IMG/VR virus record: IMGVR_UViG_3300017751_000076 | Span: 1-36,171 of that record | Source: a virus | Length of the DNA: 36,171 nt | Strand: one strand, 5' to 3' | Shown: piece after piece, positions 2,478-26,961 of the stretch | Numbering within the stretch: the first letter of the stretch is position 1 | Layout of the letters: the number at the start of each line of letters is the position of its first letter | The notes under the pieces: generated by a model | What the model was told of the DNA's origin: nothing | The model's input: the letters and a program-made list of their open reading frames with translations, nothing else | Database searches by the model: none | Program-made: the position numbers and the translations under genes

Positions 2478-2864
2478 TTATATCCTTGTTATTCCGGGTG
2501 TGACAGTAACAGTCCCTTGAACCACACGATCTGTTTTACTATTTTGACTTACAGGTGCTGTAATCTCGACATCGTATAAATATCTACCAGGTTCAAGAGA
2601 AGTTGTACCCGCATGTGTTACTGTATCAGGTTCACTGCCTGTTGTATAATCATCTTTAGGCAATACTAAAGTAATTTGACCTGATAAGCCGTTGTGTGAA
2701 GTTTGAAATGTTGTTGTCGGTGTTGATGATGCATAATTTTTGCGCATTTGTGAAGCAACAGTATAATCTGTTAGGTTCACGGGTACACCAGATGCATCGG
2801 ATAAATCAATTGTGGCATCAAAGTCAGCGCCTTGATCTATTGTTATATTTGCTTTAATAGCCAT
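2478..2864 (-). CDS. Small virion protein with a beta-sandwich-like repeat pattern
   Basis: The protein reads MAIKANITIDQGADFDATID, SGVPVNLTDYTVASQMRKN and later GQITLVLP, EPGRYLYDVEITAP, VVQGTVTVTPGITR. This is the well-known phage pattern of a short beta-sandwich protein (N-terminal domain of baseplate/fibre accessory proteins, BppU-like in style). Three in-frame starts are possible: a TTG at 2876 and ATGs at 2867 and 2864. The ribosome site GGAG (2871-2874) overlaps the TTG-initiated extension, so that start is unlikely. Its 6-base spacing fits the ATG at 2864 best, giving 128 residues. It is the first gene of a unit with its own late promoter at 2891-2898. Its function in the virion is not known; an accessory role in the fibre or baseplate is inference. 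Confidence 0.75.
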   Translation of the reverse strand: MAIKANITIDQGADFDATIDLSDASGVPVNLTDYTVASQMRKNYASSTPTTTFQTSHNGLSGQITLVLPKDDYTTGSEPDTVTHAGTTSLEPGRYLYDVEITAPVSQNSKTDRVVQGTVTVTPGITRI

Positions 2865-2870
2865 CATTTT

Positions 2871-2874
2871 CTCC
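2871..2874 (-). promoter_or_regulatory. Ribosome binding site deciding the start at 2864
   Basis: The minus strand reads GGAG here. It is 3 bases from the ATG at 2867 and 6 bases from the ATG at 2864. It also lies inside a possible TTG-initiated extension, so it argues against that upstream start and in favour of 2864. Confidence 0.6.
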
Positions 2875-2890
2875 AATTAGTGTTAATTAG

Positions 2891-2898
2891 TATTTATA
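2891..2898 (-). promoter_or_regulatory. T4-type late promoter box, minus-strand half of a palindrome (TATAAATA)
   Basis: The minus strand reads TATAAATA exactly, 27 bases before the ATG at 2864. It shares four bases with the plus-strand box at 2895-2902, so the two form one 12-base perfect palindrome. It would drive the 132-, 76- and 613-residue genes. Confidence 0.75.
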
Positions 2899-2902
2899 AA
2901 TA
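2895..2902 (+). promoter_or_regulatory. T4-type late promoter box, plus-strand half of a palindrome (TATAAATA)
   Basis: The plus strand reads TATAAATA exactly, 35 bases before the ATG at 2937, with an AAAGGAA ribosome site in between at 2926-2932. It is the only upstream signal seen for the lone plus-strand gene. Confidence 0.75.
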
Positions 2903-2936
2903 ATATAAACACAAGTCCCTAACTTAAAGGAAAAAC

Positions 2937-5498
2937 ATGTCAGTATCTAAATATTTAAGAATTGGTTTGAGAGCAGACAAAAACCTTGCAGATCTGCCAA
3001 ACAAAACAACAAGTTTGGGCAATATTCTCGATGATCTAATCCCCAACCAGTCATTCATTCCAGGCGACCTACAAGTTATCAATGGATTAAATACAACAAA
3101 TATTTGGGCTGAAGATTTAAAGGAACTTATCGATATATCTGTTCAATATTCACCTTTATACGTAGACAGTGACGGCAACCTAGCTTTTCTAGCTCCTAGT
3201 GATGTGCAGCCACGAATCAGATCAGTTGATAAGATAAGAAATGAAAAGGTTATTCTTGGCGATCCTGCCTACAGGTTAGGCGGCCAAGGACCAATTGCAA
3301 AAGTATTTCCTTCATATGCTTTAATATCTCCAAGCAGCGCACGACAAAGTCATCGCACTCAAGGCACTCCGCTAAGGCCATATAATGATATTTTTGACCC
3401 TGACCATGCAACCGTTATTACAACACAAGATTATTGGATGGACGGCAGATTCGGATTCGATTCAGCATTTCATCCATCATTCCCAGATAGGTTTGGAGGA
3501 ATTTCTTGGACAGGTTGGTTGTCCAATTCAGCCTCTCGTAGGGTTGATTTCGAATGCACATCATTCTTTCTTTTGGAAAAAGACACTGGTACAACCACTG
3601 AAGCATGGGAGCCAGTTAAAGTCAGATCTGCAGAAGAATGGACAGCGACAGTCCACGTAGATAATACTGCTGACACAACAAAAATAACATTCACGGCTGT
3701 TGATAGTTTGCATTTGTTTCAAAATGTTGGAATGGGTACTGTCGCAGGATCACCTACACATACAATTATTGATATTGATTATACATACTCTGAACCTGTT
3801 TGCACGTTACAATCCATATCTGGAGCAGCAAACTTGAGTGTTAGTTCAGGTGATACGATACATTTCTCGTCAAAGATAGGCACAATGATAACAGATCTAG
3901 GCTTTAGACACACTGACGAGATGGCTGTTGGAGATACGCAGCAAGTTAGAATAACAGTGTGGAATCCAAAGCCTGAAGATTTTGTTACTGCGAAAACAGT
4001 ATCTGATTTTCCTTCGTTCGGCATGAGATATGATTTAGGTATTGATATTGATATTGCAGGTGGTAATGAGAGTGAAGACGGCGATTCATTATACACGCCT
4101 TACAACTATTTCTTTGCTGAAAAATCAGGCAGTGTTAATGCACCCGTTATTCCTAATACATATACTCATTTTTCACGAAACGTAATATCTGAAAGAAATA
4201 AACATTTATCACACTACTTTCAAAATGCGCAGCCTCTTTATATTAGATATACTGCAAAATTAAAACCTAGCGAGGTTTCGAGATTCAATACAGGTTCGGG
4301 TAATTATGAACCAACTTCCACCACCTTGACCTGGCGAGGCAATACAAGATTCCAGGGTAGCCCGACAGTAATGCGAACTATTAAAGTCGGTGATATTTTG
4401 CTATTTGCTGACCGCCTTGCGCCGAATACAATTGCAGGCACCTTAGGACCGGGAGGTGATCATTATTTTTTACAAGTTGCATCAACAAATAACGAAGATA
4501 CTTTATTTGTCGAACCATTTAAATTTTCAAACCAAGGTACAAATGAATCTCCAAATACTATTATAGGCGGCGCTTACAGCAATTCGGTTAATGCACCAAT
4601 AAGATTTTATGTTATTGATAGTAAAGGTCTTATAGGCATATATAATCAAACAAGTGCTGACGGTGCTGATTCCACTGCAACCAGACAACATGTGTTGCGC
4701 AGAGTGAAAAATAGTGATTATCAAGATAGTGGCTTATCAACATCAGATTATTTTGCCACTGATGTTCGTGCAGGTGACTTATTTGTAAACCTTTCGGTTT
4801 TGAGGCAAACCGATGGGACTCCTGTACAGACACAGGCGAAGTGGTTTGATAAAATAACAGAGGTTTCGACTACCAATTCCGGTATAAATATTACGACTAC
4901 TCCGTTTAATACTGGGAGCAATTCGCCTAGCATGAGCCGATCACGATCAGTGAATGGGTATGGGTTAATATATGCGCATAGAGGATTAAGCGACCAATCA
5001 ACTGCTACTGAATGTGTTGGTGTTGTAGGTGCAGAAGTTGCCAATCAGGTTACTAACAGCGCAAATGTTCCTTTGACTTTCATTCCTGAGGGACTTCAGA
5101 CAGGAATGAAAGTTTATTTTGCAGGGATAGATATTAATAACCCAATTATTCCTGACGGAACAACGATTCAAAGTATAACTGGAAATACTGTAGTTTTAAG
5201 CACAACAGTTTCTTTGAACCAATCTGTCACTATTGTGTTTGCTCCTTCAGTATCAGCAACCAACAAAGAAGGTTGTATCATGCCTTTAAATACTGCGCCG
5301 CCATTTGCAGGTACTGATGATGGATTAGAGACAACAGGAACAGCACCGCATTTAGTTGTTGGCGGCGAGTTTGCAATTTCAGGAATAAAATTCGAGGATG
5401 CGACATCCGTAGAAGTGACGCCATCAACCGATGATGCTGATGGAGGGTTATTACTTAAAACACCTGATGGAACTAAGTATTGGGCACTTACAGATTAA
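2937..5498 (+). CDS. Large virion structural protein, 853 aa, on the opposite strand to all neighbours
   Basis: The N-terminus (SVSKYLRIGLRADKNLADLP) followed by a GLNTTNIW...LIDISVQYSPLYVD section and a YWMDGRFGFDSAFHPSFPDR block resembles, from memory, large structural proteins of marine T4-like phages. Much of the rest is beta-rich with no catalytic signature. Residues about 697-765 (GLQTGMKVYFAGIDINNP, IQSITGNTVVLSTTVSL) look like a small immunoglobulin-like or carbohydrate-binding-type sandwich repeat. The C-terminus ends DGTKYWALTD. A good ribosome site (AAAGGAA) precedes the ATG, and a perfect late promoter box lies 35 bases upstream. Its TAA overlaps the TAA of the converging 391-residue gene, with no terminator visible between them. 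No membrane segment or signal peptide is seen. Virion location and fibre or baseplate-decoration role are inferences from context and style. Confidence 0.72.
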   Translation: MSVSKYLRIGLRADKNLADLPNKTTSLGNILDDLIPNQSFIPGDLQVINGLNTTNIWAEDLKELIDISVQYSPLYVDSDGNLAFLAPSDVQPRIRSVDKIRNEKVILGDPAYRLGGQGPIAKVFPSYALISPSSARQSHRTQGTPLRPYNDIFDPDHATVITTQDYWMDGRFGFDSAFHPSFPDRFGGISWTGWLSNSASRRVDFECTSFFLLEKDTGTTTEAWEPVKVRSAEEWTATVHVDNTADTTKITFTAVDSLHLFQNVGMGTVAGSPTHTIIDIDYTYSEPVCTLQSISGAANLSVSSGDTIHFSSKIGTMITDLGFRHTDEMAVGDTQQVRITVWNPKPEDFVTAKTVSDFPSFGMRYDLGIDIDIAGGNESEDGDSLYTPYNYFFAEKSGSVNAPVIPNTYTHFSRNVISERNKHLSHYFQNAQPLYIRYTAKLKPSEVSRFNTGSGNYEPTSTTLTWRGNTRFQGSPTVMRTIKVGDILLFADRLAPNTIAGTLGPGGDHYFLQVASTNNEDTLFVEPFKFSNQGTNESPNTIIGGAYSNSVNAPIRFYVIDSKGLIGIYNQTSADGADSTATRQHVLRRVKNSDYQDSGLSTSDYFATDVRAGDLFVNLSVLRQTDGTPVQTQAKWFDKITEVSTTNSGINITTTPFNTGSNSPSMSRSRSVNGYGLIYAHRGLSDQSTATECVGVVGAEVANQVTNSANVPLTFIPEGLQTGMKVYFAGIDINNPIIPDGTTIQSITGNTVVLSTTVSLNQSVTIVFAPSVSATNKEGCIMPLNTAPPFAGTDDGLETTGTAPHLVVGGEFAISGIKFEDATSVEVTPSTDDADGGLLLKTPDGTKYWALTD

Positions 5499-6682: not shown

Positions 6683-9600
6683 TTATGGATTAACACTTAT
6701 TGTCCAACCCTTACCTTTCAAAAAGTCAATGATTGCTTCAGTGTCTCCATCTGCGTTTAGTCGAGTCAAAGTGACCCTTGAGTTACCTGTTAAAGTTATG
6801 TTTACGCCGCCTCTGTTTCTTAAATCGTAATTTGATTTCATGTCCTGTAATAGACGTTTAGCAGAACCCAAGAATAAATCGTTGTTTGCCACGTTTAAAG
6901 TATTAATATATTTATTAGAACTAAGAGACCCTGACTGATATGTCGTTAATAAATTATTGCTGAGATTGACTTTAGATAGCCTAGGCGATAATGACAAATC
7001 AGGCATAAATCCTACCATTGCATTGTTACTTGCATTTAAATTCCATGCTCTGGGACAATCGATAGTTGAAATTGCAGTGAACTCATTATTTTGCACTTGT
7101 ATATTTCTGACATTATTGTTCTTTAAAGCAAATGTGCCTGTCAACTTATTGTCGTGCAAAGTGAGCTCTCTTAACGAATCAGAATTTTCCCAATCAGGCA
7201 TAACACCAGACAATTGCGTTGATGTTATACTGAATTCTTGAATTGCAGTTAGGAAAGATATATTTGGCATTTTTCCTCTGATATTAGTCCCAGTTGTTTT
7301 ATCTCTTCCCTGTCCTGTCAAGGAGAATTCTATTAAAGATCCGCCACAAGGTTCGAAAGTTTTTGATGTTTCCTGGCGCTCTGAATTGGTAGCAGATGCA
7401 ACAAGAATTCTCCTTACAGGTCTTACATTATATATTGCTCCTTTCTGCGCTTCAACTTGCTCACCCGTTTTAAAACTTTGTGCCATACCACTAACAAGGG
7501 CATTTCCGTTGACTTGTTGCTGTTTTGGATTAGGTCCTTCAGTGGATGACCAATATATTCCGCCTTGACTCTTGATATTGAAACTGTTAATCTTATAATC
7601 TTGATTAGTTGATACTATTTTAAATACAACATCCGTATTGCCGGTCAGGGTTATAGGTAAAAGTGCTGAAAAGGTTGTTGTTACGGCTGTACTTGATTGA
7701 CTAATATGAAACACAGTATTCGTAACTACCCCTAATTCCTGTGCTTGGCGAGGAGATTCTGCAATGATGTCAATATCGCCATATTTTCCTGGTGAGCTAC
7801 TTGTACCTGCAGGCAGAGGATTTGCCGACCCTCCACTAACATTGCTTCCAGTAGTTGCTGCCGTAAATGTGCTATTTAAGCTATACGACTCCCCAGTAGT
7901 TCCAGCAATTATATTCCATTGAGGGTCGCCGCCGTTACCTAAATCTGTAATAGCGTAATCTCTTCCTACAACAAAAGAACCTGAAGGAACTTGAGCATCT
8001 CTAACATAAGCAACAGTACACGAAACTTCATATGTACCCTGAGGCAATGATATCGGATCAGTTTCTAATGTTGTTCCTACACTGGGAACGCCTCCATCAT
8101 TTGCTATGGCAACAGTTAATTTGTTCGATCCGCCAGTAAGAATAGTCGGATTACCTGATGCTGTAAATCCAAAAGAAGGTGATGATGATGATGTAGCGGT
8201 GAAATTAGGGTTTACAAAATAATTTACATCACCATTGGTGCCATTGTGATTATTTGATGTCCTAAACGCCTCTGACCCAGTATTCTTAAATGCGGCAGGT
8301 GTCGAGACATTTGAAGGCACAGAGGAAGTATATGCACCCTGCGATAAAGTAGGCACTGAAAAATTATTTGATTCAGGTGCTGTGATGTCATTACTAGAAC
8401 TTGTTGGTTTCAGGTTTCGATACATTAATTCAAGTTCATCTCTAGCAGGCAAATACCAATCACTTTTGCCGCCAGGAGATGTCGCATTAAGATCGACAAT
8501 GTATTTTGTAGCTGCATAATCAGTACTATTCGCACCACCGTGTTCGTCAGTCGTATTTGTTACGCCGTCATTTGTTGACGGTGATCCTTGCGCACCTGTG
8601 CCGGAGCCAGTAAACCTAGGCAAAAATTCTTCGTATTGTTTATCAGCAACAACAAGATGATATTGCTCTTGAGAATTGTTCTTTAATGTTCCTGCGTAAT
8701 ATCCTCCGCCGTACTCTGATCCTATTCCCCCGGTAGGTTCATCAGCAATCACCTCTTGAAAGTCGTTGCCAAAGAAGTTTGCTTGTCCTGGTTGACTATC
8801 ATGGTTGCCGCCGCTTAATTTAAATACCTTTAACTGTTCTGTCCCGCTAAATGTCCCAGGAGTCATTTTTCCAGTAAGGCGTGTATTCTGAAAATAAATG
8901 TTTGACAACTCCGGCAATCCGATAAATAATGTGGCAGTATTTGCTGTTACATATGAATTTTGAAAGTGTAAATATTTTAACTTGTTGCAGCCAGTAAAGT
9001 ATCCGTCAATTCCCCCTGACGGATTTGCACGACTGTAATTATTGTAATGCCAATAATATGTTAAATTTTGTTTACCCGATACGTTAATTACTTCTAAATT
9101 ATTGTACCCTGCTTGAATTTTTATTATTGAATCAGGTACAGTAACTACTTGCCCCGGGGTCCCATTAGAAGATAGTTGGGAATACATATAATTGCCGTAA
9201 ATATATAAGTATTTAAGGTTATTGGGTTGTCCTTGAACTTTGCCGTCCATACTGTATGAGTTATGCGTAACTTCGTGATGCAAGTACTGATACTGTTGAC
9301 GATAAATTTCATATAATTCAATATTATTGCCGTTAACTTTAGGTGAGCAGGCATTGCCAGATTCTCTAACTCCTAACATTCTTCTTGTTCTTTTGCTGTA
9401 CCAATCCCAAGCGTCAAAGTAAAAGTTCTTTAATTTTGACGGTTCAAGGGAACCTGTTCCGCTCGCCTTAAGTTGCCGGATATCTATAGGAGTCTCATCC
9501 GAAAAGGTGCATCTGGTAACAAGCGATGTCACGGAAGATGGCATATAATCTGTTAATTGCTGCTGTGCAGTTTTATCTGATCTTGAAAAATCGTTATTAG

Positions 9601-10630
9601 TTTGATATATAGTAATAAGTTTACCGTTTGTGTTACTTGAAACATTGCCTCCAGATATATCAAAGAAATCGGGCATTTCGTAAAAATCGTTTGCAGCAAT
9701 GTTAATATATGACAAATTTTTCATTTCAACCTTCGGAAACTCATTTACTCTTAATGCTCTTCGGGATGAAGTATCCCACAAATCTAGTCGTGAAATATCG
9801 TTAGGATTTTTAAAGATATCTATATGCGTTTCAGCAAATGTTACACCCGGATTATAGAAAAAAGTTTTTGTTGCAGTGCCAGCTGACCCACTTATTGCGA
9901 CCTCCCTACCTATAGAACCTTCGGCCATTGCAGTATTAGTAAACAGTATTGATGGCGGAATATTTTTTGTTGCATTCGTACTATCAACTCTTATCCTCGC
10001 CTTATTAAATACTCCAATAATCCTAAATGGAATGTTTCTCATCGCAAAGAATTGTTTATTTGTGCCGTTTATGTTTACGGTTACTTTATGTGTAGGAACT
10101 TCAGCGAGAAATCTTTTTGCAGTCAACTCTCCTGTGAATAGTATATTCTCGGCTTGAAGAACTGACTCGCCACCTGAACCAGTGATTACGGTATCAGCGC
10201 CATAAAATATAGGATCTGATGCAGCAAAAGGAGGTAGTTGCGACCATGAAGAAACACGACTTGTGGATATATCCGCACTTTTGTGTCCTGGGACAGACGT
10301 AGAATAATCAACATAGTTGTATTTTATTGCGCCTGCTCGAAGTTGATGATCTATTCTCAGATTAAAATTAGTTTCTCTTTCAATGCCGCCTAGTAATAAA
10401 GCATCGTTGCCGACAGCTATACTAGATTGATAGTTTGAATAGTTTTCTTTTTCCTGGTCAATGTCAAGACCTGACAGATTATGCAATTGCGCTGTTGTCA
10501 AATCATAATTCTGAATGCCACGAATGTGATCTAAATCAAGTCTATTTAACCCGATGTTTCTTAATGACTCAGATTGATTTTCTACATCACTAAGATAATT
10601 ACCGACATTTAATCCTGTGTAAATTGCCAT
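6683..10630 (-). CDS. Giant fibre-like protein with leucine-rich repeats and a split DUF1566 domain, 1315 aa
   Basis: Two stretches show leucine-rich-repeat spacing: about 470-620 (LKYLYIYGNY, LEVINVSGKQ, LKYLHFQNSY, LSNIYFQNTRLTG, LKVFKLSGGN) and about 1090-1290 (LRELTLHDNKLTG, VRNIQVQNNEF, LSKVNLSNNLLT, INTLNVANNDL). Between them lies a DUF1566-type domain (C-type-lectin-like in style): GGKSDWYLPARDELELMYRN at about 721-740 and IYWSST...YNVRPVRRI at about 1025-1075. A roughly 210-residue segment (about 800-1020) sits between these halves and includes a GRDYAITDLG...WNIIAGTTG module found also in gp8. Together these suggest a receptor-recognising fibre or tip. The start overlaps the stop of the 1267-residue gene (TAATG), with AAGGAG just upstream. 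LRR and DUF1566 calls are by eye; receptor is unknown. Confidence 0.75.
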   Translation of the reverse strand: MAIYTGLNVGNYLSDVENQSESLRNIGLNRLDLDHIRGIQNYDLTTAQLHNLSGLDIDQEKENYSNYQSSIAVGNDALLLGGIERETNFNLRIDHQLRAGAIKYNYVDYSTSVPGHKSADISTSRVSSWSQLPPFAASDPIFYGADTVITGSGGESVLQAENILFTGELTAKRFLAEVPTHKVTVNINGTNKQFFAMRNIPFRIIGVFNKARIRVDSTNATKNIPPSILFTNTAMAEGSIGREVAISGSAGTATKTFFYNPGVTFAETHIDIFKNPNDISRLDLWDTSSRRALRVNEFPKVEMKNLSYINIAANDFYEMPDFFDISGGNVSSNTNGKLITIYQTNNDFSRSDKTAQQQLTDYMPSSVTSLVTRCTFSDETPIDIRQLKASGTGSLEPSKLKNFYFDAWDWYSKRTRRMLGVRESGNACSPKVNGNNIELYEIYRQQYQYLHHEVTHNSYSMDGKVQGQPNNLKYLYIYGNYMYSQLSSNGTPGQVVTVPDSIIKIQAGYNNLEVINVSGKQNLTYYWHYNNYSRANPSGGIDGYFTGCNKLKYLHFQNSYVTANTATLFIGLPELSNIYFQNTRLTGKMTPGTFSGTEQLKVFKLSGGNHDSQPGQANFFGNDFQEVIADEPTGGIGSEYGGGYYAGTLKNNSQEQYHLVVADKQYEEFLPRFTGSGTGAQGSPSTNDGVTNTTDEHGGANSTDYAATKYIVDLNATSPGGKSDWYLPARDELELMYRNLKPTSSSNDITAPESNNFSVPTLSQGAYTSSVPSNVSTPAAFKNTGSEAFRTSNNHNGTNGDVNYFVNPNFTATSSSSPSFGFTASGNPTILTGGSNKLTVAIANDGGVPSVGTTLETDPISLPQGTYEVSCTVAYVRDAQVPSGSFVVGRDYAITDLGNGGDPQWNIIAGTTGESYSLNSTFTAATTGSNVSGGSANPLPAGTSSSPGKYGDIDIIAESPRQAQELGVVTNTVFHISQSSTAVTTTFSALLPITLTGNTDVVFKIVSTNQDYKINSFNIKSQGGIYWSSTEGPNPKQQQVNGNALVSGMAQSFKTGEQVEAQKGAIYNVRPVRRILVASATNSERQETSKTFEPCGGSLIEFSLTGQGRDKTTGTNIRGKMPNISFLTAIQEFSITSTQLSGVMPDWENSDSLRELTLHDNKLTGTFALKNNNVRNIQVQNNEFTAISTIDCPRAWNLNASNNAMVGFMPDLSLSPRLSKVNLSNNLLTTYQSGSLSSNKYINTLNVANNDLFLGSAKRLLQDMKSNYDLRNRGGVNITLTGNSRVTLTRLNADGDTEAIIDFLKGKGWTISVNP

Positions 10631-25410: not shown

Positions 25411-26961
25411 TTAATTACCTTTGAGGTCATCAACCTGCTGTTTCAATTCTTTAATTGCTTCAATAAGTAACGCAATTGTGTTATCATACCTAACTGCCAT
25501 TTTGCCTTCTTCAGTTTCATACACTGCTTCTGGTAACACTTGTTGTAACTCTTGAGCAATGACACCAGGAACTCGTCCTTTTTCAGGAGCATCAATATAG
25601 TTAAATGTATATCCGCCAATCGAATTAACTTTGTCAAGAGCATTTTCAATAGGCTCAATGTTTTCTTTTAGCGATCTATCTGAAAGAGTAGCGAATGCTG
25701 TAATGTCACCTGATGCTGATAGGTTTCCGTTTGTCGTATTAAATTCGAACCTAGTATTGCCGCTATGATCCTCAAAATCAATTTGATTCAATGCCTGCAA
25801 CAATATCCTACCTTTTGGATCCTGAGTTCCTTGTCCCGGACTTCCTAGAGCTTCATGCTGACCTGAATATAATATAAGTGTTGAAAATCCGTCTGTGCTA
25901 GTGTCTCTTTGAATATGAGATTCCTTCGTTAAATGATCGGATCCATCCATATCACCAAAGGAAATTAATGTTCCATTATCTACAGTGAGACCGAATCCAT
26001 TAAGTGTAGTTCGAGAGCTGGCATCAGCAGGATTCTTTTTAATAAATTCGGTGGCAAAGTTTTTCGTGCTGATTGAATTAATGTGACCGTGGCGATCAAA
26101 ACCTAAACTCTGAATGCCATGTGTTCCAGAGTTTGATGAAGAACCTGCTTCACCTGAAGTACTATCAGTACTATTTACTGAAACAGTATTGTCAGTATGT
26201 GAAATTGTACCCGTGTTTTCTGTGTCATTAAACGTGCTACCTGTGATACCACTCGCAGACAATCCGTTACCTATGGTTATACTTTCGATTGATTCAATGT
26301 CGCCATTGAAAGTCAATTCTGTTGAAACTTCTGTGCCGCCACTAACGGCAAATGAACCCGTCACATCACCAGTAAAGGTTATAGTTTGTGCGGTTTCAAA
26401 TGCAGATGCTGTCGTACAGTTACTGGATATTTGTGCAGGAAGAATTGAATCGTTAATTACAACATTCGTACCTGTCAACTCACCAGGAGTATTTCCTGTC
26501 GATCTTGTGAACGTAAATATGGCATCATTTTCACCTGTATTGCTTCGACCAAATATTTGAAGAGATGCATGTTCTAGAATACCTGAACTGTCAAGATCGA
26601 CAGGACCTATTGCCCAGGTGTTATTAGCGGCAACACTAGCATCTGTTCCATTCACAAATTGAATTGTATTGCTTAAACCAGAAGCAGGAACATATAGTAT
26701 TTGCTTTTGATTAAACTCGACAACATCGTATTTAAGTTTTAAATTGTCATTAGTGTTTAATGGCGACAATACATTTGTTTTGACACCATCAGTTGTGTCA
26801 TCAGTTCGTATATGTCCTGCCGTAATAATGTCACCAGTGTTTCCTTGACCAGATCCCATAGTAACAACATTACCTAAACCTGTAATTATGTCATTGGTTT
26901 TTGTCCACCACTGTTGAAATGTATCATTAGTATTAACTTGATTTATATTAGTTATTGCCAT
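25411..26961 (-). CDS. Tail fibre with C-terminal S74 intramolecular chaperone, 516 aa
   Basis: The C-terminal ~90 residues form a peptidase S74 (intramolecular chaperone of endosialidase type) domain: LSDRSLKENIEPIENALDKV at 426-445, GVIAQELQQVLPEAV at 466-480 and VRYDNTIALLIEAIKELKQQ at 490-509. Ser427 and Lys432 have the spacing of the known Ser-Lys autocleavage dyad, so the domain is predicted to fold the fibre trimer and then cut itself off before Ser427. Upstream, residues 1-425 are beta-rich shaft, including TASAFETAQTITFTGDVTG (184-202), similar to a segment of the 613-residue fibre, and LGFDRHGHINSIS (286-298). The ATG overlaps the 66-residue gene by 14 bases. The purine-rich sequence before it is only a weak ribosome site, so translation may depend on coupling. 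Confidence 0.88.
   Translation of the reverse strand: MAITNINQVNTNDTFQQWWTKTNDIITGLGNVVTMGSGQGNTGDIITAGHIRTDDTTDGVKTNVLSPLNTNDNLKLKYDVVEFNQKQILYVPASGLSNTIQFVNGTDASVAANNTWAIGPVDLDSSGILEHASLQIFGRSNTGENDAIFTFTRSTGNTPGELTGTNVVINDSILPAQISSNCTTASAFETAQTITFTGDVTGSFAVSGGTEVSTELTFNGDIESIESITIGNGLSASGITGSTFNDTENTGTISHTDNTVSVNSTDSTSGEAGSSSNSGTHGIQSLGFDRHGHINSISTKNFATEFIKKNPADASSRTTLNGFGLTVDNGTLISFGDMDGSDHLTKESHIQRDTSTDGFSTLILYSGQHEALGSPGQGTQDPKGRILLQALNQIDFEDHSGNTRFEFNTTNGNLSASGDITAFATLSDRSLKENIEPIENALDKVNSIGGYTFNYIDAPEKGRVPGVIAQELQQVLPEAVYETEEGKMAVRYDNTIALLIEAIKELKQQVDDLKGN

Follow-up and report, generated by a model that had tools for sequence, protein, structure and literature searches.

The late box of bacteriophage T4 spans positions -13 to -6 (PMC1524935), and T4 late promoters have no conserved -35 sequence (PMC2988020). 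Single late promoters of cyanophages/pelagiphages (NATAAATA / TATAAATA) carry the same box in the same place before genes of the 128-aa family as the junction described below (PMC2984593); unlike this junction, they point in one direction and contain no palindrome. Promoters read in both directions are known from bacteria. The sigma70 bidirectional promoters analysed by Warman, Grainger, Wade, and colleagues contain a symmetric -10-type element, and the starts of bacterial bidirectional promoters are located 7-25 bp apart, 18 bp being the commonest spacing and 10 and 23 bp also being common (PMC12825309, PMC10268837). In E. coli, competition between the two directions is negligible as long as basal activity is low and is observed upon strong activation of one of them (PMC12825309).

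A T4-type late promoter of comparable symmetry is contained in the T4 genome itself. The 12-bp word TATTTATAAATA has a single copy there (116450-116461), located in the spacer of 50 bp that separates the divergent late genes 26 (minus strand) and 51 (plus strand), and RB69 likewise has it between genes 26 and 51. A study by Scarlato, Storlazzi, Gargano, and Cascino, published in Virology in 1989, is reported to have described overlapping promoters that drive divergent transcription of the T4 baseplate gene cluster; a description of a fused late box was not found in the open literature searched. Among IMG/VR loci with a gene 51 of 44-96% identity, nine out of ten contain the word. It is not universal, since ten of the 12 named T4-like genomes searched lack the 12-bp form. 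As a separate observation, the T4 proteins 26 and 51 (L352, 1303-1929 and 1980-2729) show weak similarity to each other, 20.5% over 161 residues (E about 1e-5 in a comparison of four proteins), as if the head-to-head pair had come from an inverted duplication.

The junction analysed here is located in a 36-kb IMG/VR virus record (IMGVR_UViG_3300017751_000076; 36,171 nucleotides), the whole of which is referred to as the window. Large genes on its minus strand match T4-like baseplate and fibre proteins, and by these sequence matches the window is assigned to a T4-like phage. As between T4 genes 26 and 51, an identical word with two overlapping boxes is present between head-to-head genes (Table 1). 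The genes themselves are not homologous, as blastp detected no significant similarity between the T4 pair and the 128-aa and 853-aa proteins. In T4, and with the same arrangement in RB69 and other Straboviridae, the word separates late baseplate genes, the T4 spacer being 50 bp long; the spacer of the junction described here is longer (69-72 bp) and found in marine phages. The first-pass annotation of the locus had known of no described example of such a box. The T4 word corrects this view, and the junction is a further instance of an architecture already existing in T4, not a new kind.

Table 1 Features of the divergent junction and its flanking genes in the window
Feature	Position	Strand	Evidence
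128-aa gene	2478..2864 (including stop codon)	-	phrog_1084, E 8.6e-25; phrog_3304, E 3.4e-21
Divergent intergenic spacer with fused promoter and both ribosome-binding sites	2865..2936	.	
Predicted +1, leftward	2885 (or neighbouring 2884)	-	Predicted from T4 geometry (PMC1524935)
Late box TATAAATA of 128-aa gene, 26 bases from start codon	2891..2898	-	Exact match; equivalent single box in codirectional relatives
Fused core, two back-to-back T4-type late boxes TATTTATAAATA	2891..2902	.	Sequence; invariant in 20 distinct homologous spacers
Late box TATAAATA of 853-aa gene, 34 bases from start codon	2895..2902	+	Exact match
Predicted +1, rightward, assuming the T4 box position (-13 to -6)	2908	+	Predicted from T4 geometry (PMC1524935)
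853-aa gene, start codon ATG at 2937	2937..5498	+	Fast-evolving, beta-rich presumed virion protein

The sequence features on which the first-pass annotation was based are present. The word is identical to its own reverse complement over all 12 bp, the late box can be read on both strands with four bases in common, and ribosome-binding sites precede the 128-aa gene (GGAG) and the 853-aa gene (AGGA). Both genes start close by, as described, and the distances of 27 and 35 bases given there become 26 and 34 intervening bases, a difference of one base in counting. With these distances, both exact boxes are situated within the 20-40 bases upstream of the start codon that are characteristic of late genes. 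An AT-rich stretch adjoins each box downstream, AATATAAACA on the plus strand and CTAATTAACA on the minus strand, as in T4-type late promoters, where such a stretch melts, and the one at 2903-2912 is conserved in the close clade.

The palindrome was also considered as being unusual in itself, and this was rejected. Perfect palindromes of 12 bp are common in the window, eight being observed when about 11 are expected, so that symmetry by itself means little. Exact TATAAATA boxes are in mild excess only (eight versus 3.7 expected). For the particular word TATTTATAAATA, the chance expectation is 0.015 per window and about 3e-5 per 70-bp spacer. The case for a non-chance origin, as it can be made from sequences, rests decisively on conservation and on co-occurrence with divergent gene order. 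These are also the data against which another possibility has to be judged: only one box might work, the other half being fortuitous or vestigial, with the second gene being read from elsewhere. Late boxes are AT-rich and do arise by chance, as their number in the window indicates.

For the 128-aa gene, 51 usable relatives were obtained, 11 with a divergent and 40 with a codirectional upstream neighbour. The fused box is present in all 11 divergent loci, nine times as the 12-bp form and twice as a 14-bp form, TATTTATATAAATA, and in none of the 40 codirectional ones. In 31 of the latter, a single exact late box is found in the 200 bp upstream, in most cases at a distance of about 20-40 bases from the start codon. 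Fisher's exact test yielded a p value of about 3e-11 for the association of divergence and fused box, with 39 codirectional loci counted and with sequences that are related and not independent, since a single event, or a few, may underlie the clades. For the 853-aa gene, a profile search revealed 53 usable loci. All 27 loci facing a member of the 128-aa family carry the fused box, 25 of them in the 12-bp form and two in the 14-bp form, all 18 facing other genes have non-overlapping boxes, back to back and 1-6 bp apart, and among the eight with a codirectional neighbour no back-to-back pair was detected, most of them carrying a single box. In the group of 18, the partner is in most cases a gene of 229-247 aa, and the boxes are mostly arranged as TATTTATC-6 bp-GATAAATA. 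The first-pass annotation had proposed comparing the spacer among related phages. Wherever the gene order is kept, the palindrome is kept without exception, and other gene orders are devoid of it; its suggestion of two fused late promoters for two divergent genes is thereby supported by the gene-order comparison.

Two side observations concern the alternative partners. Repeats of GATAAATA, 6 bp apart and not fused, are located upstream of the 853-aa family gene in L389-L392, L395-L399, L401-L406, and L408, and the head-to-head protein of 229-247 aa resembles a baseplate wedge-fibre connector in its N-terminal part.

Alignment of the spacers speaks for both halves of the word. In 20 distinct spacers with the 12-bp form, the palindrome does not vary at a single position, and the two 30-base flanks have mean identities of only 59% and 46%. 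The 14-bp form keeps both boxes with a shift of 2 bp, and in a tree of the 128-aa family one of the 14-bp cases clusters with one of the 12-bp cases (support 95/84). A single working box would hardly account for the invariance of both halves between diverged flanks, for their joint retention upon a change of register, or for the fact that the half assigned to the 853-aa gene is missing wherever this gene is not head-to-head. On the other hand, the word does occur in front of a codirectional gene. In 49 records of relatives, every one of the nine junction-bearing contigs has a single copy of TATTTATAAATA, with only two copies located elsewhere, and the reversed word was absent from all 49. One of the two extra sites, in G036, is apparently located between divergent starts; the other one, in G034 near 161521, precedes a codirectional gene and looks incidental. 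It demonstrates that the word alone is no proof of a divergent promoter. Overall, a single functional box appears improbable.

Searches of IMG/VR revealed that the arrangement is not restricted to this gene pair. When the word lies between Shine-Dalgarno motifs, divergent ORFs flank it in 38 of the 120 matches listed, compared to seven of the 120 matches listed for its reversed counterpart, TATAAATATTTATA (p 3e-7); for these 12-bp scans of the collection, fractions were compared among the matches listed, 120 each, and the scans for the 14-bp form were complete. The latter has divergent flanks in 17 of 50 cases, its reversed control in four of 40 (p 0.01). Since most divergent control matches are crossed late boxes, the controls are not neutral and the comparison is conservative. 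The divergent matches of the word fall into at least 20 gene-pair families, and among the ten families examined were genes for tail tube, baseplate wedge, head-tail adaptor, sheath stabiliser, tail fibre, PAAR, and holin-like proteins. Besides the junction of the 128-aa and 853-aa genes, at least 20 further gene-pair families show the fusion of late promoters, some of these families with virion genes, and such fusion appears to be a recurrent and strongly conserved solution in T4-like phages that is not peculiar to T4 genes 26 and 51. A 14-bp word between divergent genes of the pelagiphage Mosig was not counted, being too near to one start codon for a clear promoter.

Divergent spacers are the classic place for an operator, and the word, as a perfect palindrome, could be bound by a symmetric dimeric regulator instead of, or in addition to, being a promoter. 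T4 itself offers a parallel with DsbA, whose AT-rich binding sites overlap two late promoters (PMC2988020). For the junction, this interpretation is very improbable. The step from 12 to 14 bp, or the separation of the boxes by 1-6 bp with other partners, breaks a fixed dyad and leaves the boxes intact; a shift of register by two bases with both boxes retained fits selection on two promoters and not on a fixed operator. In addition, two late boxes fully account for the word, and it is also found at unrelated gene pairs that share no adjoining regulator gene.

Much closer to even, and only slightly less plausible than its opposite, is the view that fusion is a by-product of a compact spacer of about 70 bp: with boxes about 25-35 bases from each start, they would come to overlap without any selected effect of the overlap. 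This view is compatible with a bidirectional promoter and denies only a function of the overlap as such. Ordinary distances between boxes and starts agree with it, as do further short spacers between divergent genes of these phages, in which the boxes are crossed (G004, G005, G006) or 6 bp apart. It is less easily reconciled with L369, where the spacer is longer, with a box 45 bases from the start, and the boxes are still fused, or with the 4-bp overlap being kept without exception through large divergence.

The crossed arrangement is seen at a second divergent junction of related phages (G004, 44861-46449; G005, 3457-5045; G006, 560-2394) with a spacer of 56-59 bp. There, the plus-strand box is located to the left of the minus-strand box, so that the predicted 5' ends of both transcripts overlap. 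Divergent matches of the reversed palindrome, for example L245 and L259, mostly exhibit the same crossed arrangement.

Components of the late transcription machinery were detected in two long relatives bearing the junction (131 and 144 kb), each of which contains TATTTATAAATA once. Genes for the late sigma factor gp55, 47% identical to that of HTVC008M (E 2e-45), and for the sliding clamp gp45 (E 7e-49) are present in both. With a 69-aa HTVC008M protein as query, the co-activator gp33 was not detected in these two, a weak match being obtained in one relative only (E 5e-4). The window, with its 36 kb, does not include the gp55/gp45 region, so that the machinery is documented in the relatives only.

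Based on sequence, comparison among relatives, and T4 geometry, the fused word very probably constitutes a bidirectional T4-type late promoter. Host RNA polymerase with gp55 would recognise TATAAATA alone, with no need for a -35 element, and the 12-bp palindrome would offer it two binding modes, which should be mutually exclusive because the boxes share four bases. In one mode, transcription of the 853-aa gene would start rightward near 2908; in the other mode, the 128-aa gene would be transcribed leftward from a start near 2885. The start spacing calculated from the box geometry is 23 bp for the 12-bp form and 25 bp for the 14-bp form, and the former is one of the common spacings of sigma70 bidirectional promoters. 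These differ from the predicted late promoter, which would use gp55 and an 8-bp box without a -35 sequence, would be strongly activated by the clamp, and has a perfect rather than an approximate palindrome. By analogy with T4 and with sigma70 bidirectional promoters, both directions would fire, and mutual exclusion of two polymerases at the fused box can soundly be inferred.

The first-pass annotation had expected competition to result in expression of both units in a fixed ratio. Late initiation in T4 depends on the orientation of the loaded clamp, which activates only promoters pointing one way, and the polarity of this activation is set by the DNA strand carrying the 3'-OH. If clamp activation is strictly one-way, a fused promoter need not give a fixed ratio, and the direction of transcription may instead follow the orientation of gp45 clamps left by replication. 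In an extended version, which we regard as rather unlikely, the fused box would be a switch read by replication, and clamps from leading- or lagging-strand synthesis would decide if it fires to the left or to the right. Were this the case, the ratio of two virion gene units would track the direction of the fork and change during infection, and switches of this type would be common in T4-like phages, being located at some 20 or more unrelated gene pairs. Given the strict clamp polarity in T4, fused sites are natural test pieces for the question of whether the direction of replication sets that of late transcription.

The 128-aa gene begins with the ATG at 2864, and an alternative in-frame ATG at 2867 would result in 129 aa. 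In cyanophages and pelagiphages, members of its family bear the annotation 'L-shaped tail fiber protein assembly', and the pelagiphage HTVC008M has a homologue of 44% identity. Sequence searches with the 853-aa protein in PHROGs, Pfam, and named phages yielded no match, and its 53 usable relatives are all from IMG/VR. Its AF2 model is weak (pLDDT 61), and Foldseek found weak PA14/lectin-like matches only; its role is therefore kept at presumed virion protein.

Several minor observations on these and other proteins were made. Most relatives of the 853-aa protein are only about 24-41% identical, with an N-terminal KYxRIGLRADxNLxDL and a C-terminal CxxPLNTAPPFxGTxxGL motif being kept, and the weak model resembles PA14/lectin-like beta domains. 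Elsewhere in the window, a gene for 1315 aa (6683-10630) shows sub-threshold matches to Lcl_C and LRR_8, and the product of a 516-aa gene (25411-26961) carries a Peptidase_S74 fibre chaperone domain at its end.
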